DNA of 64,000 bases from assembly GCA_013824165.1 (NCBI GenBank), contig PNNH01000031.1, forward strand, positions 1 through 64,000. The letters are read 5' to 3'. Made by a program: the position numbers and the translations under genes. This DNA comes from Methylibium sp. (GTDB lineage: Bacteria > Pseudomonadota > Gammaproteobacteria > Burkholderiales > Burkholderiaceae_C). This document shows positions 20,902-26,559 of the stretch, in pieces (position 1 is the first letter of the stretch; every line of letters starts with the position of its first letter). Below the pieces are notes generated by a model that saw only the letters and a list, made by a program, of their open reading frames with translations, was not told the DNA's origin and did not search any database.

Positions 20902-22485
20902 TCAGCGCAGGAACAGCCGGTAGACCGGGTTGTTGGTTTCGTCCTCGAAGGGGTAGTTCAGTGTGTCCAGGAACTGGCGCAGGGCCGCCCGGTCGCCGCG
21001 GGGCACCTGGATGCCGACGAGAATACGGCCATAGTCAGCGCCCTGGTTGCGGTAGTGGAACAGGCTGATGTTCCAGTCCGGATGCATGCTGGACAGGAAG
21101 CGCATCAGCGCGCCTGGTCGCTCCGGGAAGATGAAGCGATACAGGCGCTCGTCCTTGGCCAGCTCGCTGCGGCCGCCCACCATATGGCGGATGTGCTGCT
21201 TGGCAAGCTCGTCGTCCGACAGGTCCAGGGTCTCGAAGCCGTGCTTGACCAGCTGTCGCGCCAGCTTGACGGCTTCCTCGCGCTTGGCGATCGACACGCC
21301 GACGAAGACATGCGCGACCTTGGCATCCGAGATGCGGTAGTTGAACTCGGTGACGCTGCGCGGCCCCAGCAACTCACAAAAGCGCTTGAAGCTGCCGCGC
21401 TCCTCGGGGATGGTGACGGCAAACAGTGCTTCACGTTGCTCGCCGACCTCGGCGCGCTCGGCGACGAAGCGCAGGCGGTCGAAGTTCATATTGGCGCCGC
21501 AGGTGATGGCCACCAGGGTCTGACCCTTGGCGCCCGTCTTTGCCACGTATTGCTTGATGGCCGCCACGCCCAGCGCACCGGCCGGCTCCATGATGGAGCG
21601 GGTGTCTTCGAAGATGTCCTTGATGGCGGCGCAGACGGCATCCGTGTCCACGAGGATGTAGTCATCCACCAGTTCGCGGGTGATGCGGAAGGTCTCTTCC
21701 CCTACCAGCTTGACGGCCGTGCCATCCGAGAACAGGCCGACATCGTTCAGCTGCACACGCTTGCCGGCCTTGACCGAGCGCACCATCGCGTCGGAGTCGC
21801 GGGTCTGCACGCCGATGATCTTGATCTCGGGACGCAGGGCCTTGATGTAGGCCGCGACGCCGGCAATCAGGCCGCCGCCGCCGATGGCGACGAAGACCGC
21901 GTCGATGGGGCCGGGGTGCTGGCGCAGCAGCTCCATACCGATGGTGCCCTGGCCAGCGATCACGTCCGGGTCGTCGAAGGGGTGAACGAAGGTCAGCCCC
22001 TGCTCACGTTCAAGCTCCAGCGCACGGCCGTAGGCGTCGGTGAAGCTGTCGCCGTGCAGCACAACCTCGCCGCCCAGGGCCTGGACAGCGTCGATCTTGA
22101 CCTTGGGTGTGGTCACCGGCATCACGATGACCGCACGGCAGCCGAGCTTCTTCGCTGACAGCGCGACGCCTTGGGCGTGGTTGCCAGCCGATGCGCAGAT
22201 CACGCCTTGGGCGCGTGCGGCCGGAGTCAGGTGCGCCATCTTGTTGTAGGCGCCGCGCAGCTTGAAGCTGAAGACGGGTTGCTGGTCTTCACGCTTGAGC
22301 AAGACCTTGTTGCCGAGCCGCTTTGACAGATTGCGCGCGATGTCCAGCGTCGTCTCGACGGCGACCTCGTAGACCTTGGCGTTCAGGATGCGCTGCAGAT
22401 AACTGTTCCCGCTTGGAATCAGGGCCGGCAGACTCGTTTCGGTGCTGCGGCGGCGTTTCGGATTCTTCGAGGCGGGGCCGGCCAT
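20902..22485 (-). CDS. ilvA: Threonine ammonia-lyase, biosynthetic
   Basis: PLP enzyme that deaminates threonine to 2-oxobutanoate, the first step of isoleucine synthesis. The PLP lysine is K75 in FSFKLRGAYNKM. SAGNHAQGVA and the GGGGLIAG phosphate-binding loop follow. The C-terminal 190 residues hold two ACT-like regulatory domains (starting at ALFAVTIPEERGSF and LYRFIFPERPGALM), marking the allosteric, isoleucine-inhibited form. The ATG at 22485 has GGAGAG seven bases upstream and gives 527 residues, slightly longer than E. coli IlvA because of a basic N-terminal extension. It appears to be transcribed alone. Confidence 0.97.
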   Translation of the reverse strand: MAGPASKNPKRRRSTETSLPALIPSGNSYLQRILNAKVYEVAVETTLDIARNLSKRLGNKVLLKREDQQPVFSFKLRGAYNKMAHLTPAARAQGVICASAGNHAQGVALSAKKLGCRAVIVMPVTTPKVKIDAVQALGGEVVLHGDSFTDAYGRALELEREQGLTFVHPFDDPDVIAGQGTIGMELLRQHPGPIDAVFVAIGGGGLIAGVAAYIKALRPEIKIIGVQTRDSDAMVRSVKAGKRVQLNDVGLFSDGTAVKLVGEETFRITRELVDDYILVDTDAVCAAIKDIFEDTRSIMEPAGALGVAAIKQYVAKTGAKGQTLVAITCGANMNFDRLRFVAERAEVGEQREALFAVTIPEERGSFKRFCELLGPRSVTEFNYRISDAKVAHVFVGVSIAKREEAVKLARQLVKHGFETLDLSDDELAKQHIRHMVGGRSELAKDERLYRFIFPERPGALMRFLSSMHPDWNISLFHYRNQGADYGRILVGIQVPRGDRAALRQFLDTLNYPFEDETNNPVYRLFLR

Positions 22486-22521: not shown

Positions 22522-22527
22522 ATCATA
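22522..22527 (-). promoter_or_regulatory. Candidate -10 element for ilvA
   Basis: The minus strand reads TATGAT, five of six matches to consensus, about 37 bases before the ilvA ATG. The expected -35 position is G-rich and poor. It lies downstream of the small-RNA terminator, so ilvA need not depend on read-through from that unit. Confidence 0.35.
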
Positions 22528-22567: not shown

Positions 22568-22601
22568 CAAAAAAGAGCCCGAGACCTTGCGGGCTCGGGC
22601 T
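22568..22601 (-). terminator. Intrinsic terminator of the candidate small RNA
   Basis: On the minus strand AGCCCGAG and CTCGGGCT (plus-strand coordinates 22594-22601 and 22576-22583) form a perfect eight-pair stem with a ten-base loop, followed by C and six T. It points toward ilvA but lies about 85 bases before its start codon. Confidence 0.85.
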
Positions 22602-22697
22602 TAATCCACCATGGAGGCGGTGGAGGAGACAAACGGTGCGTTGAAAACCAACTGATGGAGCCGAAAGGCCAGCTCGCCGAAGGCCTTCAACAGCCTG
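22568..22697 (-). ncRNA. Candidate small regulatory RNA between ilvA and the OsmC gene
   Basis: A stretch of about 130 bases has its own promoter-like sequence and a strong intrinsic terminator, and no convincing reading frame. In RNA order it has a branched 5' part: GTTGA pairs with TCAAC, enclosing the perfect stem AAGGCC/GGCCTT. Next is a pyrimidine-rich segment containing CUCCUCC, complementary to Shine-Dalgarno sequences. Then comes a small TCCACC/GGTGGA hairpin, and finally the terminator stem with six U. These are the parts expected of a trans-acting sRNA. An open frame without a normal start runs through it and ends just before the terminator; I do not think it is translated. No Rfam family is recognised. 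Confidence 0.55.
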
Positions 22698-22703
22698 ACT
22701 AGA

Positions 22704-22733
22704 ATTCTATCGCCTGCAAATGCTGCGCTGCAA
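22704..22733 (-). promoter_or_regulatory. Candidate promoter of the small RNA
   Basis: On the minus strand TTGCAG (22733-22728) is followed after 18 bases by TAGAAT (22709-22704), which matches the -10 consensus at five of six positions. It lies in an AT-rich island (about 22700-22800) that also has to hold the divergent promoter of the OsmC gene. Transcription would start near 22697. Confidence 0.5.
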
Positions 22734-22858
22734 TATTTTTGCTGGCAAATTGGCATAAATAGGTATCTGCCTCGAATTCGCGATGCATGCCTGGGAATGT
22801 CATCGATTCTTCATATTCGCGAACTGGGGCAGGCGAGTGCCTGCAAATGAAAGAAGCT

Positions 22859-23281
22859 ATGGAATGCACGATTGATTGGATGGGCACTCAGGGCATGTCG
22901 TTCGTGGCCCAGACCGGCAGCGGGCACATGCTGGCCATGGACGGAGCGCCAGAGGGAGGCGGGCACAACCTGGCTCCGCGCCCGATGGAGACGGTGCTGG
23001 CCGGAACGGGCGGATGCACCGCCTACGACGTGGTTCTGATCCTGAAGCGGGGCCGTCACGATGTGCGCGGCTGCCAGCTGAAGTTGAGCGCCGAGCGGGC
23101 CGACGCTGATCCCAAGGTGTTCACCAAGATCCACATGCACTTTGTCGTAAGCGGCAAGGGGCTGAGCCAGGCCGCGGTCGAGCGCGCAGTGGCCCTGTCG
23201 CATGAAAAGTACTGCTCTGCCAGCATCATGCTGGCCAAGACGGCAGAGATCACGACTTCGGTCGAGTTGGTCGAGGTCTGA
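22859..23281 (+). CDS. OsmC/Ohr-family protein
   Basis: Small cytoplasmic protein of the OsmC superfamily, whose characterised members reduce organic or inorganic peroxides using two cysteines. Here TGGCTAYDVVLILKRGR carries the first cysteine after GG, and HEKYCSASIMLAKTAEI carries the second (the YC-S motif). These match the YhfA-like branch of OsmC proteins. I chose the ATG at 22859 (MECTIDWM), the usual start of relatives, giving 140 residues. The ATG at 22847 would add four residues. It stands alone and converges with coq7, only four bases between the stops. Confidence 0.9.
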   Translation: MECTIDWMGTQGMSFVAQTGSGHMLAMDGAPEGGGHNLAPRPMETVLAGTGGCTAYDVVLILKRGRHDVRGCQLKLSAERADADPKVFTKIHMHFVVSGKGLSQAAVERAVALSHEKYCSASIMLAKTAEITTSVELVEV

Positions 23282-23285
23282 TCGT

Positions 23286-23942
23286 TCAGATGTGGTGGGC
23301 GGTGCGTGTCATCACGCTGGCAGCCAGTCGCATCAGGCCTTTGATGGGCGCCGGCAGATCAGCGGCTCCGGCCGCCTTGGCGTCCTGCGCATGTCGCAAC
23401 TCGTCCAGCTTCATCTGGTCGACGATGGCCCGGGAGGCCAGGTCGGCGTCAGGCAGGCGCTCAAGATGGCTGGCCAGATGCTGTTCCACCTGGGTTTCGG
23501 TTTCCACGACAAAACCCAGGCTGAGCCGATTGCCAGCCAGTCCGGCCAAAGAACCAATGGCGAACGCTCCGCCGTACCAGACCGGATTGAGCCAACTGGC
23601 ATGAGTGTTGAGCTGTTCAAGCCGCTGCTGGGTCCAGGCCAAATGATCGGCCTCTTCCTGCGCGGCATGTTCGAAGTGCGTGCGCAGGCCTTCATCGCGG
23701 CAGACCAGGGCCTGACTCTGGTAAAGCGCTTGGGCGCAGACCTCGCCCACATGGTTGACGCGCATTAGCGCGCCTGAAAGCTGCCGTTCCTGTTCCGAGA
23801 GCGGCTGAGTCTCAGCGGCGAGCCCTGCCGGGTTGGGCCGGCCGGCGCTATGACTTCCCGACAAGGTGCGCAGGGCATGGTCGAAGCTGGACAGCAAACG
23901 GTCTGCGCTTGAGAGTTGGCGGAGCTTGCTGGAGGGTTCCAT
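23286..23942 (-). CDS. coq7: 3-demethoxyubiquinol 3-hydroxylase (Coq7)
   Basis: Di-iron monooxygenase for the penultimate hydroxylation of ubiquinone synthesis, peripherally bound to the membrane. The ferritin-like four-helix ligands are visible: NHVGEVCAQALY, HAAQEEADHLAW, and DQMKLDELRHAQ near the C-terminus, supplying Glu and His residues in the order expected for the family. The ATG at 23942 gives 218 residues. Longer in-frame readings upstream would add residues unlike Coq7. Betaproteobacteria often use this oxygen-dependent enzyme instead of UbiF. Confidence 0.95.
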   Translation of the reverse strand: MEPSSKLRQLSSADRLLSSFDHALRTLSGSHSAGRPNPAGLAAETQPLSEQERQLSGALMRVNHVGEVCAQALYQSQALVCRDEGLRTHFEHAAQEEADHLAWTQQRLEQLNTHASWLNPVWYGGAFAIGSLAGLAGNRLSLGFVVETETQVEQHLASHLERLPDADLASRAIVDQMKLDELRHAQDAKAAGAADLPAPIKGLMRLAASVMTRTAHHI

Positions 23943-24262
23943 GTGCGCAATGAAAACAGATCCTGGATGAAAGGCGATTTTAAGGTGGGTTTGACGGATG
24001 ACGCAGGCATCTTTGCTGCTTAGTCCAGGGCGGGGCCGTGTCTGGGCTGCTCTGCGATGGACCTGTTTTTTTGTGACCGTTTTTTGATGGAGACCGTACG
24101 TTGTGCTGGGGCAACGAAGCTTGGGCATTTCTGACAAGGCTTCTGGTCAGCCCGACTTTGCTCTGGTGCAATACGGCAACTTCCGCTGCGGAGGTTGGCC
24201 TGATCGGCTCTGGCAACAGGGCTTCCCGGATCAGGGCCTCTTGATCAACTTAGGAGAATCCA
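23943..24262. other. Divergent control region of coq7 and the first porin; no gene seen
   Basis: These 320 bases hold no supported gene. On the minus strand TAAAAT (23982-23977) is a possible -10 for coq7, with a weak -35. In the porin leader, GGCCTGATC (24197-24205) pairs with GATCAGGGCC (24229-24238) with one bulged base, just before the ribosome binding site AGGAG. No confident porin promoter could be picked out. Confidence 0.5.
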
Positions 24263-25246
24263 ATGAAGAAATCCCTGATTGCCCTGGCTGTACTCGGTTC
24301 CATGGTGGGTGCCGCTTCGGCCCAGTCGTCCGTGACCCTGTTCGGTATCCTTGACGCCAACCTGAGCTACGGCAAGAGCGGCGGCCAAACCCTGAAGTCC
24401 ATGGGCACTGACGGCATCGCCAGCAGCCGTCTGGGTTTCCGCGGTACGGAAGACCTGGGTGGTGGCCTGAAGGCTGGTTTCTGGCTGGAGTCGGCCGTGA
24501 ACCCGGACAGCGGCACCAGCAACGCCAGCCGCTTCTGGCATCGTCGTTCGTCGCTGAGCCTGATGGGCAACTTCGGTGAAGTGCGTCTGGGTCGCTATCT
24601 GACCAACAACTTCACCGCGTTTGCTGACTTCGATCCGTTCGGCACCAACGGCAAGGGCGATGTGAACAAGCTGCACAGCGTGCTGGGCAGCGGTGCTTCC
24701 ACCAACGTCCGCGCTGACAACATCGTCGGCTACTTCCTGCCGGCCATGGGCGGTCTGTACGGCTCGGTCGAAATGTCGGCTGGCGAAGGCACTGACGGCA
24801 ACAAGTCCACTGGCGTGCGCCTGGGCTACGCTGCTGGCCCGCTGAACGTGACGGGTGCTGTTGCCTCCACCAAGGCTCCGGTGTCGAACTTCAAGCGCAA
24901 CACCGTTGCCGGTTCCTACGATCTGGGCGTGGTCAAGCTGTCGGCTGCCTACACCCAGAACAAGTACCGTGCACTGAAGCAAACCGTGATGAACCTCGGC
25001 GCCACCATGCCCATGGGCTCGGGTTCGCTGCGCGCTTCGTACACCAACATCGACCAGACCGGCGCCGATGCCAATCAGTTCGCTGTTGGCTATGTGCACG
25101 ACCTGTCGAAGCGTACGGCTCTGTACGGCACTTACTCGCGCATCTCCAATGACGGCGCTGCTCGTTTCGCCGTTGCTGGCAGCCCGACTGTTGCCGCTGG
25201 CAAGGACAGCTCCGGCTTCGAAGTCGGCGTTCGCCACAGCTTCTGA
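24263..25246 (+). CDS. General trimeric porin, Burkholderiales type
   Basis: Outer-membrane beta-barrel that lets small hydrophilic solutes diffuse into the periplasm. A signal peptide (MKKSLIALAVLGSMVGAASA) is followed by QSSVTLFGILDANLSYG, the start of the first strand in this family. RLGFRGTEDLGGGLKAGFWLE and FGEVRLGRYL are further marks. The protein ends in the aromatic C-terminal signature VGVRHSF for BAM insertion. Length 327 residues. AGGAG lies seven bases before the ATG. Codon use is strongly biased towards a few codons, which suggests high expression. It has its own terminator. Confidence 0.95.
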   Translation: MKKSLIALAVLGSMVGAASAQSSVTLFGILDANLSYGKSGGQTLKSMGTDGIASSRLGFRGTEDLGGGLKAGFWLESAVNPDSGTSNASRFWHRRSSLSLMGNFGEVRLGRYLTNNFTAFADFDPFGTNGKGDVNKLHSVLGSGASTNVRADNIVGYFLPAMGGLYGSVEMSAGEGTDGNKSTGVRLGYAAGPLNVTGAVASTKAPVSNFKRNTVAGSYDLGVVKLSAAYTQNKYRALKQTVMNLGATMPMGSGSLRASYTNIDQTGADANQFAVGYVHDLSKRTALYGTYSRISNDGAARFAVAGSPTVAAGKDSSGFEVGVRHSF

Positions 25247-25458: not shown

Positions 25459-26559
25459 ATGAAAAAAGCAGTTCTGGTTTTGAGCGTTCTGGCGGCAAGC
25501 ACGACGGCTGCATGGGCGCAGTCCAGCGTCAGCCTGTACGGCATCGTGGATGTGGGCGTGCGCCGCACGACCAATGAGCACGCTGCTGGGGCTCCGAGTG
25601 ATTCCATCGTCCGTGTCGTGGGTGGTGGCATGTCGCAAAGCCGGCTGGGCATCAATGTCACTGAAGACATGGGTGGTGGCCTGAAGGCGATGGCCAATAT
25701 GGAACACCGCCTGACCTCGGACAACGGCACAGTGGCTGCTGGTGACTTCTGGCGTCAGTCCTGGGTCGCTCTGCAAGGTGGCTTCGGTCGCGTGACGGTC
25801 GGCCGTCAGTACAACGTGCTGTTCGACCTGGTCACGAGCACCTACGCTTCGTTCCCTTACTCGCCTTACGCTGAAGAGTACAAGCCGGAAATCGGCTTCT
25901 CGCTGGGCGCTCGCGCCAGTAATATGGTCAAGTACATGGCCGAAATGGGCCCGATCCGCGGCGGCGTGCAAGTGTCCGCTGGCGAGGGCAGTGCCACTGG
26001 CGGCAAGACGATGGGCGGCTATCTGCGCTACACGGATGGTGGCTTGGCCATCGGCGCCGGCATGCAGAACTACGAGTTCGGCTCCGGCAAGAAGGTCAAG
26101 GCCACGACCTTTGGCGGCTCCTACCGCACCGGTCCTTGGTACATGAACGCCGGCTATGCAGTGAACAAGGCCGACAACGGCCTGAGCGCGACTGATATGG
26201 CCGTGCTGGGCAGCATGTGGACCGGCAGCTCCAACGGTGGCTTTGGCGGCGCAGCCTTCCTGGCGGCTAACAAGCGCACGATGTGGACCATCGGCGCAGG
26301 CTACCAGTTGACCCCTCAGCTGAACCTGGGTGCGCATTACTGGAAGGCCGAGCAGACTGGCCTTGCCGCCGCTGCGAAGGCTGATGCCAAGTTCCTGTCG
26401 GTGATGGCTGACTACGCCTTCTCGAAGCGCACCGACGCCTATGTCGGTCTGGACAACACCAGCCTGTCGGGCAATGTGAGCCTGAATGGCGCCAACGGTG
26501 CTGCCAACGGTGCGAAGAAGCGCAACGGCATGATGGTGGGCCTGCGTCACCGCTTCTGA
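25459..26559 (+). CDS. General trimeric porin, second tandem copy
   Basis: Outer-membrane porin of the same family as the gene before it. The signal peptide MKKAVLVLSVLAASTTAAWA is followed by QSSVSLYGIVDVGVRR. RLGINVTEDMGGGLKAMANMEH corresponds to the matching block in the first porin, and the end is VGLRHRF. At 366 residues it is about 40 longer, mainly in loop regions, and the two are clearly diverged rather than a recent duplication. GTAGGAGACATCG gives a good ribosome binding site. Separate terminators suggest separate control of the two porins. Confidence 0.95.
   Translation: MKKAVLVLSVLAASTTAAWAQSSVSLYGIVDVGVRRTTNEHAAGAPSDSIVRVVGGGMSQSRLGINVTEDMGGGLKAMANMEHRLTSDNGTVAAGDFWRQSWVALQGGFGRVTVGRQYNVLFDLVTSTYASFPYSPYAEEYKPEIGFSLGARASNMVKYMAEMGPIRGGVQVSAGEGSATGGKTMGGYLRYTDGGLAIGAGMQNYEFGSGKKVKATTFGGSYRTGPWYMNAGYAVNKADNGLSATDMAVLGSMWTGSSNGGFGGAAFLAANKRTMWTIGAGYQLTPQLNLGAHYWKAEQTGLAAAAKADAKFLSVMADYAFSKRTDAYVGLDNTSLSGNVSLNGANGAANGAKKRNGMMVGLRHRF

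Follow-up and report, generated by a model that had tools for sequence, protein, structure and literature searches.

The minus strand of the 64,000-nucleotide stretch of Methylibium sp. DNA analyzed here (the window) holds, ahead of an open reading frame that we take, following the initial annotation, to be ilvA (threonine dehydratase; 20902–22485, minus strand), a promoter-like sequence, a pyrimidine-rich segment and a terminator. This arrangement raises the question of whether the region specifies an RNA of its own and, if so, to which signal that RNA responds. Here, we present sequence evidence that supports an independently transcribed sRNA of the already known family RF02278. The RNA itself is of a known kind; the new part is its wiring to a PhaR-like operator in the promoter. 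The initial annotation foresaw neither the family, nor the probable mature RNA of ~63 nt, nor the operator.

Family membership and architecture of the RNA

In an Rfam scan, the sole match in the window at or over a gathering score is to RF02278 (Betaproteobacteria toxic sRNA), at 22631–22569 on the minus strand, with 60 bits (gathering score, 50), an E-value of 1.5e-9 (search space, the whole window) and coverage of positions 1–64 of the 64 in the model. The layout of the family is present in the window RNA, i.e., a C/U-rich 5' end and two hairpins, the second of which is the terminator. Within this core (22569–22631, minus strand), the first anti-Shine-Dalgarno segment, CUCCUCC, lies at 22622–22628; the first hairpin (22605–22624, arms TCCACC/GGTGGA) has a second such segment, CCUCC (22617–22613), in its loop; and the intrinsic terminator (22569–22596) consists of a stem at 22596–22575 and a U tract of six T. 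CUCCUCC, a small hairpin and a strong terminator with six T had all been described initially, and direct reading and a terminator scan bear them out. With NmsRb of Neisseria (RF02877), the window RNA scores 26.8 bits against a gathering score of 52, and its similarity to Rhodobacter SorY is likewise below threshold; both similarities probably reflect the common C/U-rich layout.

The initial annotation proposed a covariance-model search across Burkholderiales as a check. Such a search places a match at E 0.001 or better in 159 of 250 genomes of the order and a match over the family cut-off in 100 of them, which contradicts the idea that conservation does not extend beyond close relatives. The genome to which the window belongs (the own genome) has two matches over the cut-off, one of 44.7 bits and eight weaker ones of at most 26.2 bits; the three best are the window copy, a copy on contig 17 (L002) and a copy adjacent to a phasin gene (L003). 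Tandem copies a few hundred bases apart occur in G042, G213, G237, G320 and G345, and G042 (family f8) has nine RF02278 matches.

Comparison of cores supports the fold unevenly. A script picked 69 cores from 171 distinct ones, with at most 14 from the window's own family (f1) and at most three from any other family, and one short core dropped. The consensus of these 69 has 13 pairs, nine of them with at least one double change. Covariation is strong in the terminator stem, in which, for example, one pair is G-C in 35 sequences and C-G in 32, while the first hairpin mostly keeps its sequence and shows few double changes; the covariation that the initial annotation had suggested looking for is thus clear for one stem and slight for the other. 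Similarly, CUCCUCC, for which invariance had been the suggested check, is widespread without being strictly invariant: CTCCTCC stands at the core start in 170 of 181 loci, and a UGUCUCCUCC start is almost invariant, although both figures are partly circular because the loci were anchored on that or a similar string. A near-invariant UGUCUCCUCC start is what would be expected if the RNA functions by pairing with ribosome sites. These loci comprise nearly all listed matches of at least about 48 bits plus L003, in total 182, from which L020 was dropped because it has 37 nt of upstream sequence.

A PhaR-like operator and its distribution

Direct reading places the −35 element TTGCAG at 22728–22733 and the −10 element TAGAAT at 22704–22709 on the minus strand, separated by 18 nt, exactly as first annotated. 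Generic scans gave zero promoters vs. 0.3 expected (the window promoter is absent from their list) and one terminator vs. 0.8 expected. Because promoter and terminator signals alone are therefore not beyond chance, the scan was set aside as sole proof in favor of a comparison across genomes.

The promoter overlaps a dyad, TATTGCAGCGCAGCA (22721–22735, minus strand), that extends over the −35 element and into the spacer and has a matrix score of 16.7. Its inner 12 bases, TGCAGCGCAGCA, fit the PhaR consensus TGCRNYGCASMA at 12 of 12 positions. This consensus was obtained in Bradyrhizobium from footprinted sites together with six other promoters (PMC6201568), and the Sinorhizobium meliloti PhaR sites tested by EMSA resemble a TGCRNYGCASMA-type dyad (PMC12542648). 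The scoring matrix was built from 20 published S. meliloti sites and is independent of the loci scored; it describes an alphaproteobacterial PhaR and may differ from footprints of the C. necator-type protein.

Several lines of evidence connect this box to the sRNA. First, among the best 80 of 594 stretches from named genomes, ranked by ilvA protein similarity, the sRNA core precedes ilvA in at least 40 (strict pattern; several have little upstream sequence), and 39 of these 40 sRNAs, the exception being L107, have a box scoring at least 13.9 within 250 nt, compared to 11 of 1778 control windows on those contigs and 23 of 2000 shuffles that preserve dinucleotides; the cut-off of 13.9 is the lowest of the 39 scores and was thus chosen post hoc. 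Median scores are 18.5 for real loci, 1.6 for controls and 2.9 for shuffles, and an exact TGCRNYGCA lies within 200 nt of 39 of the 40 sRNAs vs. 61 of 2239 windows. Second, in 39 of 39 loci the box ends 8–11 nt from the best −10-like hexamer (picked from a 14-position range), which is the place expected for a repressor site over the −35 element and spacer. Third, in copies with short leaders the box lies either 9–10 nt (12 loci) or 19–22 nt (17 loci) before the core, so that it moves together with the RNA start. From its sequence, we infer that the conserved box is a PhaR operator. The ilvA relatives closest among the matches listed, L072, L073 and L074, belong to Roseateles/Paucibacter (86–87% identity), so that the window probably stems from this part of the Burkholderiales.

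The box also follows the presence of PhaR. The own genome encodes PhaR (PF07879, 106.5 bits), as do 173 of 250 genomes of the order and 53 of 60 in a second set that includes the own genome. At score 11, a box is present at 118 of 153 loci in PhaR-positive genomes vs. none of 28 in PhaR-negative genomes. Counted by genome, the figures are 96 of 104 vs. 0 of 22 (Fisher 2.9e-18, phylogeny ignored), with the reservation that PhaR-positive genomes often had more sRNA copies read than PhaR-negative ones. Of 200-nt background windows, 41 of 1337 and 1 of 214, respectively, reach this score. At cut-offs of 10, 11, 12 and 13, boxes are found in 96, 96, 93 and only 81 of the 104 PhaR-positive genomes and in 0 of 22 PhaR-negative genomes throughout; for an exact TGCRNYGCA, the counts are 87 of 104 and 1 of 22. 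Despite PhaR, 35 of 153 loci and eight of 104 genomes lack the box. The contig 17 copy, which is over the family cut-off and has a different promoter, is among these loci, with no clear PhaR-like box (best score 8.9). The 22 PhaR-negative genomes are spread over 10 families, and an OsmC-like neighbor gene is missing at 27 of the 28 loci read in them, so that phylogeny and neighborhood are confounded in this contrast.

Within families, the picture is mixed. In family f44 the contrast fails, as one of two PhaR-positive genomes has no box. In family f4, for which sampling was denser, all 93 PhaR-positive genomes have the sRNA, and seven of eight PhaR-negative genomes, five of them under 1 Mb, have no match. 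The sole PhaR-negative f4 genome with the sRNA, G280, has no box (score −1.8), and its four genus mates have recognizable ones (7.7 to 12.3). The pattern [TC]CTTGCRNYG[CT]A occurs at 69 of 74 f4 loci; 61 of 73 PhaR-positive f4 genomes reach score 11, although several of the best sites lie at least 150 nt upstream and are doubtful.

A second link to PHB comes from phasin genes, which are known PhaR targets in C. necator (PMC12542648, PMC9049629). Among 60 genomes, including the own genome, 29 of the 30 best phasin matches have a box within 250 nt upstream; at the one miss, L178, the wrong open reading frame was taken and the contig start is close to the gene. Two boxes, 56–60 nt apart, precede 27 of the 30, and the own-genome phasin promoter has two as well. 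In addition, by comparison of coordinates, eight of the 60 genomes (G000, G001, G011, G019, G022, G035, G055 and G057) have an RF02278 match of about 30–45 bits, i.e., under the family cut-off, on the same strand within about 350 nt downstream of the phasin domain. In the own genome, this sibling (L003, contig 4, 1501–1575, 44.7 bits) lies behind a phasin gene with two PhaR-like boxes in its promoter and starts ~20 nt past the stop codon. Each release of the phasin gene by PhaR would produce such siblings as well. Across the own genome, the pattern TKTTGCRNYGCAVMA with at most one mismatch has 95 matches vs. 20 for the reversed control (palindromic sites score on both strands), which makes further PhaR-regulon genes likely; beside four perfect boxes elsewhere in the genome, no clear additional PHB gene was found.

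These data bear on the possibility that growth phase or nutrients control an otherwise ordinary RF02278 sRNA and that the dyad is the site of another regulator, co-inherited with PHB metabolism. The PhaR-negative genomes, from 10 families, may have other traits in common, and no report of direct binding of PhaR to a betaproteobacterial sRNA promoter was found in the literature searched. However, the dyad fits footprinted and EMSA-tested PhaR sites, and the same box precedes nearly all phasin genes examined, and we therefore regard another regulator as unlikely.

Improbable, in our view, is that the box serves the divergent gene at 22787–23281 (plus strand), which we take from its sequence to be OsmC-like, with the sRNA a mere neighbor. 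Of the 181 loci, 83 have an OsmC-like gene upstream of the core, and in the window this gene and the sRNA have one intergenic region in common; among PhaR-positive loci the box is commoner with this neighbor (76 of 82) than without it (42 of 71). Nevertheless, those 42 loci keep the box with no OsmC-like gene beside it, and both its constant distance from the sRNA −10 element and its shift with the RNA start tie it to the sRNA. A second role at the OsmC-like gene, beside the predicted one as a PhaR operator of the sRNA, may nonetheless fall to the box.

Transcript, leader and gene neighborhood

The predicted transcript starts near 22697 and includes a lineage-variable leader with a hairpin (22632–22697, minus strand) ahead of the core. 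The nested stems reported initially for these ~130 nt are real as a fold, the 134-nt RNA reaching −55.1 kcal/mol (z −3.86) with none of 200 shuffles as good, but they fall in the variable leader rather than in a conserved domain. In 39 named relatives, inferred leaders are 14–148 nt long (median 34) and often form one hairpin, and the first core bases are mostly unpaired (median seven of the first eight). Although 27 of the 39 leaders fold with z below −1 vs. simple mononucleotide shuffles, the 5' stems were dropped as a candidate conserved functional domain. By analogy with S17 of Bordetella pertussis, in which a 190-nt long form is cut to a stable 67-nt form according to 5' RACE, Northern blots and RNase E mutants in E. 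coli (PMC11722255), the leader is probably removed by processing, the ~130-nt transcript would be a precursor, and the mature RNA is probably its last ~63 nt. The RNase E cut in S17 is given as 5'GU↓GU3' (PMC11722255); the equivalent position in the window has the letters CCGUUUGUCUCC.

The region could also be read as a 5' leader or attenuator of ilvA with no separate RNA, since ilvA, the next gene downstream and outside the sRNA, is on the same strand 83 nt past the U tract and the same order recurs in at least 40 of the 80 named ilvA loci. We consider this reading highly improbable. Across all loci, ilvA follows the core in only 31 of 181, all in family f1, which argues that the RNA is not an ilvA leader; the own-genome copy L002 sits elsewhere, and the terminator is conserved. 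The first annotation's proposal of a stand-alone trans-acting sRNA thus agrees with both this distribution and the family assignment. A possible −10 element for ilvA itself, TATGAT, lies at 22527–22522. In family f4, no ilvA was found near the sRNA at any of 74 loci (one per genome), and in 64 of them coq7 is upstream on the same strand. In the window, a gene at 23286–24137 (minus strand; start uncertain), which we recognize as presumably coq7-like and which was included in a tblastn test of neighbors, also lies upstream, but the OsmC-like gene separates it from the sRNA. Two tandem genes, judged porin-like from their translations, are at 24263–25246 and 25459–26559 (plus strand).

There is very little probability that the transcript serves chiefly to encode a small protein: an open frame (22756–22601) crosses into the core and S17L, the long form, has a putative 32-residue ORF (PMC11722255), but the inferred leaders, of 14–148 nt, have no evident sequence in common, and those of 14 nt, in five of 39 relatives, are too short for the N-terminal part. 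Likewise, a conserved small protein in the leader was set aside as a candidate, as the inferred leaders differ in length and sequence.

Proposed mechanism and comparison with known sRNAs

PhaR acts as a repressor as long as PHB is missing and moves to granules once PHB forms (PMC12542648). On this background, we think it likely from the sequence comparisons that PhaR represses the sRNA until PHB draws PhaR away and that the sRNA, once made, blocks mRNAs for uptake and metabolism at their ribosome sites. The sigma-70-type promoter of the sRNA would hold one PhaR operator over the −35 element and spacer. Without PHB, PhaR would occupy this operator and block transcription. As PHB forms, PhaR would go to the granules and the sRNA would be made together with phasin; given that PHB draws PhaR to granules, the sRNA would rise with PHB. 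The primary ~130-nt transcript would then be cut near UGUCUCC to yield the stable ~63-nt RNA, and its two C/U-rich stretches would pair with transporter and metabolic mRNAs at their ribosome binding sites. In this way, stored carbon may throttle further uptake and catabolism. In the source organism, we infer PhaR binding, the PHB response, processing and the targets from the comparisons above. More broadly, on balance we favor a model in which RF02278 sRNAs in Burkholderiales and relatives belong to the PhaR regulon and form a translational arm of PHB storage, made from their own promoters and from phasin 3' UTRs, with PhaR as the repressor postulated for S17.

A PhaR-controlled sRNA suggests that carbon storage in these bacteria would be coupled to a broad brake on protein synthesis. 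It leads to the prediction that cells filling with bioplastic turn on a brake on uptake and catabolic mRNAs, and the wiring bears on PHB production strains. In the accessible parts of the literature searched, no regulator of RF02278 sRNAs is named, and PhaR was not found as one, although subscription papers (Sass 2019, NcS27) or supplements may describe it; a PhaR operator would supply one signal, stored PHB. PhaR is absent from the main texts of PMC5688073, PMC4603805 and PMC11722255, as are phasin and hydroxybutyrate from that of PMC5688073 and phasin from that of PMC11722255.

Published accounts describe RF02278 sRNAs as toxic or as slowing growth, and as rising in glucose medium, biofilm and starvation. 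Introduction of RNAs of this family into E. coli is reported to inhibit growth (PMC4603805); for S17S, exponential growth of E. coli is reported to be unimpaired (PMC11722255). The closest described relatives are the double-hairpin RNAs ncS03, ncS05, ncS27 and ncS62 of Burkholderia cenocepacia, themselves RF02278 members (PMC5688073, PMC4603805). They have in common with the window RNA two hairpins, anti-Shine-Dalgarno stretches, a terminator and independent transcription, and ncS27 is processed to a shorter form (PMC5688073, PMC4603805). They differ from the window copy, which is located in front of ilvA and whose leader is longer. In glucose medium, ncS03, ncS05 and ncS27 are up 8.0-, 6.9- and 4.3-fold, and 55–80% of predicted interactions of the double-hairpin RNAs lie around start sites (PMC5688073). 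In the same paper, three homologues are said to have a "common upstream motif (Fig. S3)", which may be the same box as the PhaR-like operator.

S17 resembles the window RNA in having a terminator and in targeting ribosome sites (PMC11722255), the latter being predicted for the window RNA. It adjoins coq7, as do most f4 loci, and its downstream gene encodes a glycosyltransferase (PMC11722255), whereas the window has ilvA in this place and the OsmC-like gene before the coq7-like gene. The S17 promoter is of the sigma-A type with −35 TTGCAT, a 17-nt spacer and TACTAT (PMC11722255), compared to −35 TTGCAG in the window. S17 is raised in Bvg+ mode and depends on Hfq, and the authors postulate a repressor of its promoter; in its absence, 92 genes rise (91 in the introduction of that paper), 70 of them with complementary sites at or near ribosome sites (PMC11722255). 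The published S17 hexamers with their 17-nt spacer recur at five of 74 f4 loci, at four of them inside a TCTTGCATCGCACAA box, which makes PhaR a testable candidate for the postulated repressor.

The NmsR siblings of Neisseria (RF02877; PMC5362039) have two anti-Shine-Dalgarno regions and metabolic targets and show weak sequence similarity to the window RNA, which, being under the RF02877 cut-off, is not a member. MmgR of S. meliloti resembles the window RNA in the regulation predicted for the latter: MmgR is repressed by AniA/PhaR via a TGC dyad in its promoter and acts on PHB accumulation, probably via phasin mRNAs (PMC12542648, PMC8401924). PhaR binds the mmgR promoter, and depletion of PhaR raises MmgR (PMC12542648), which provides a precedent for the control of an sRNA by PhaR.
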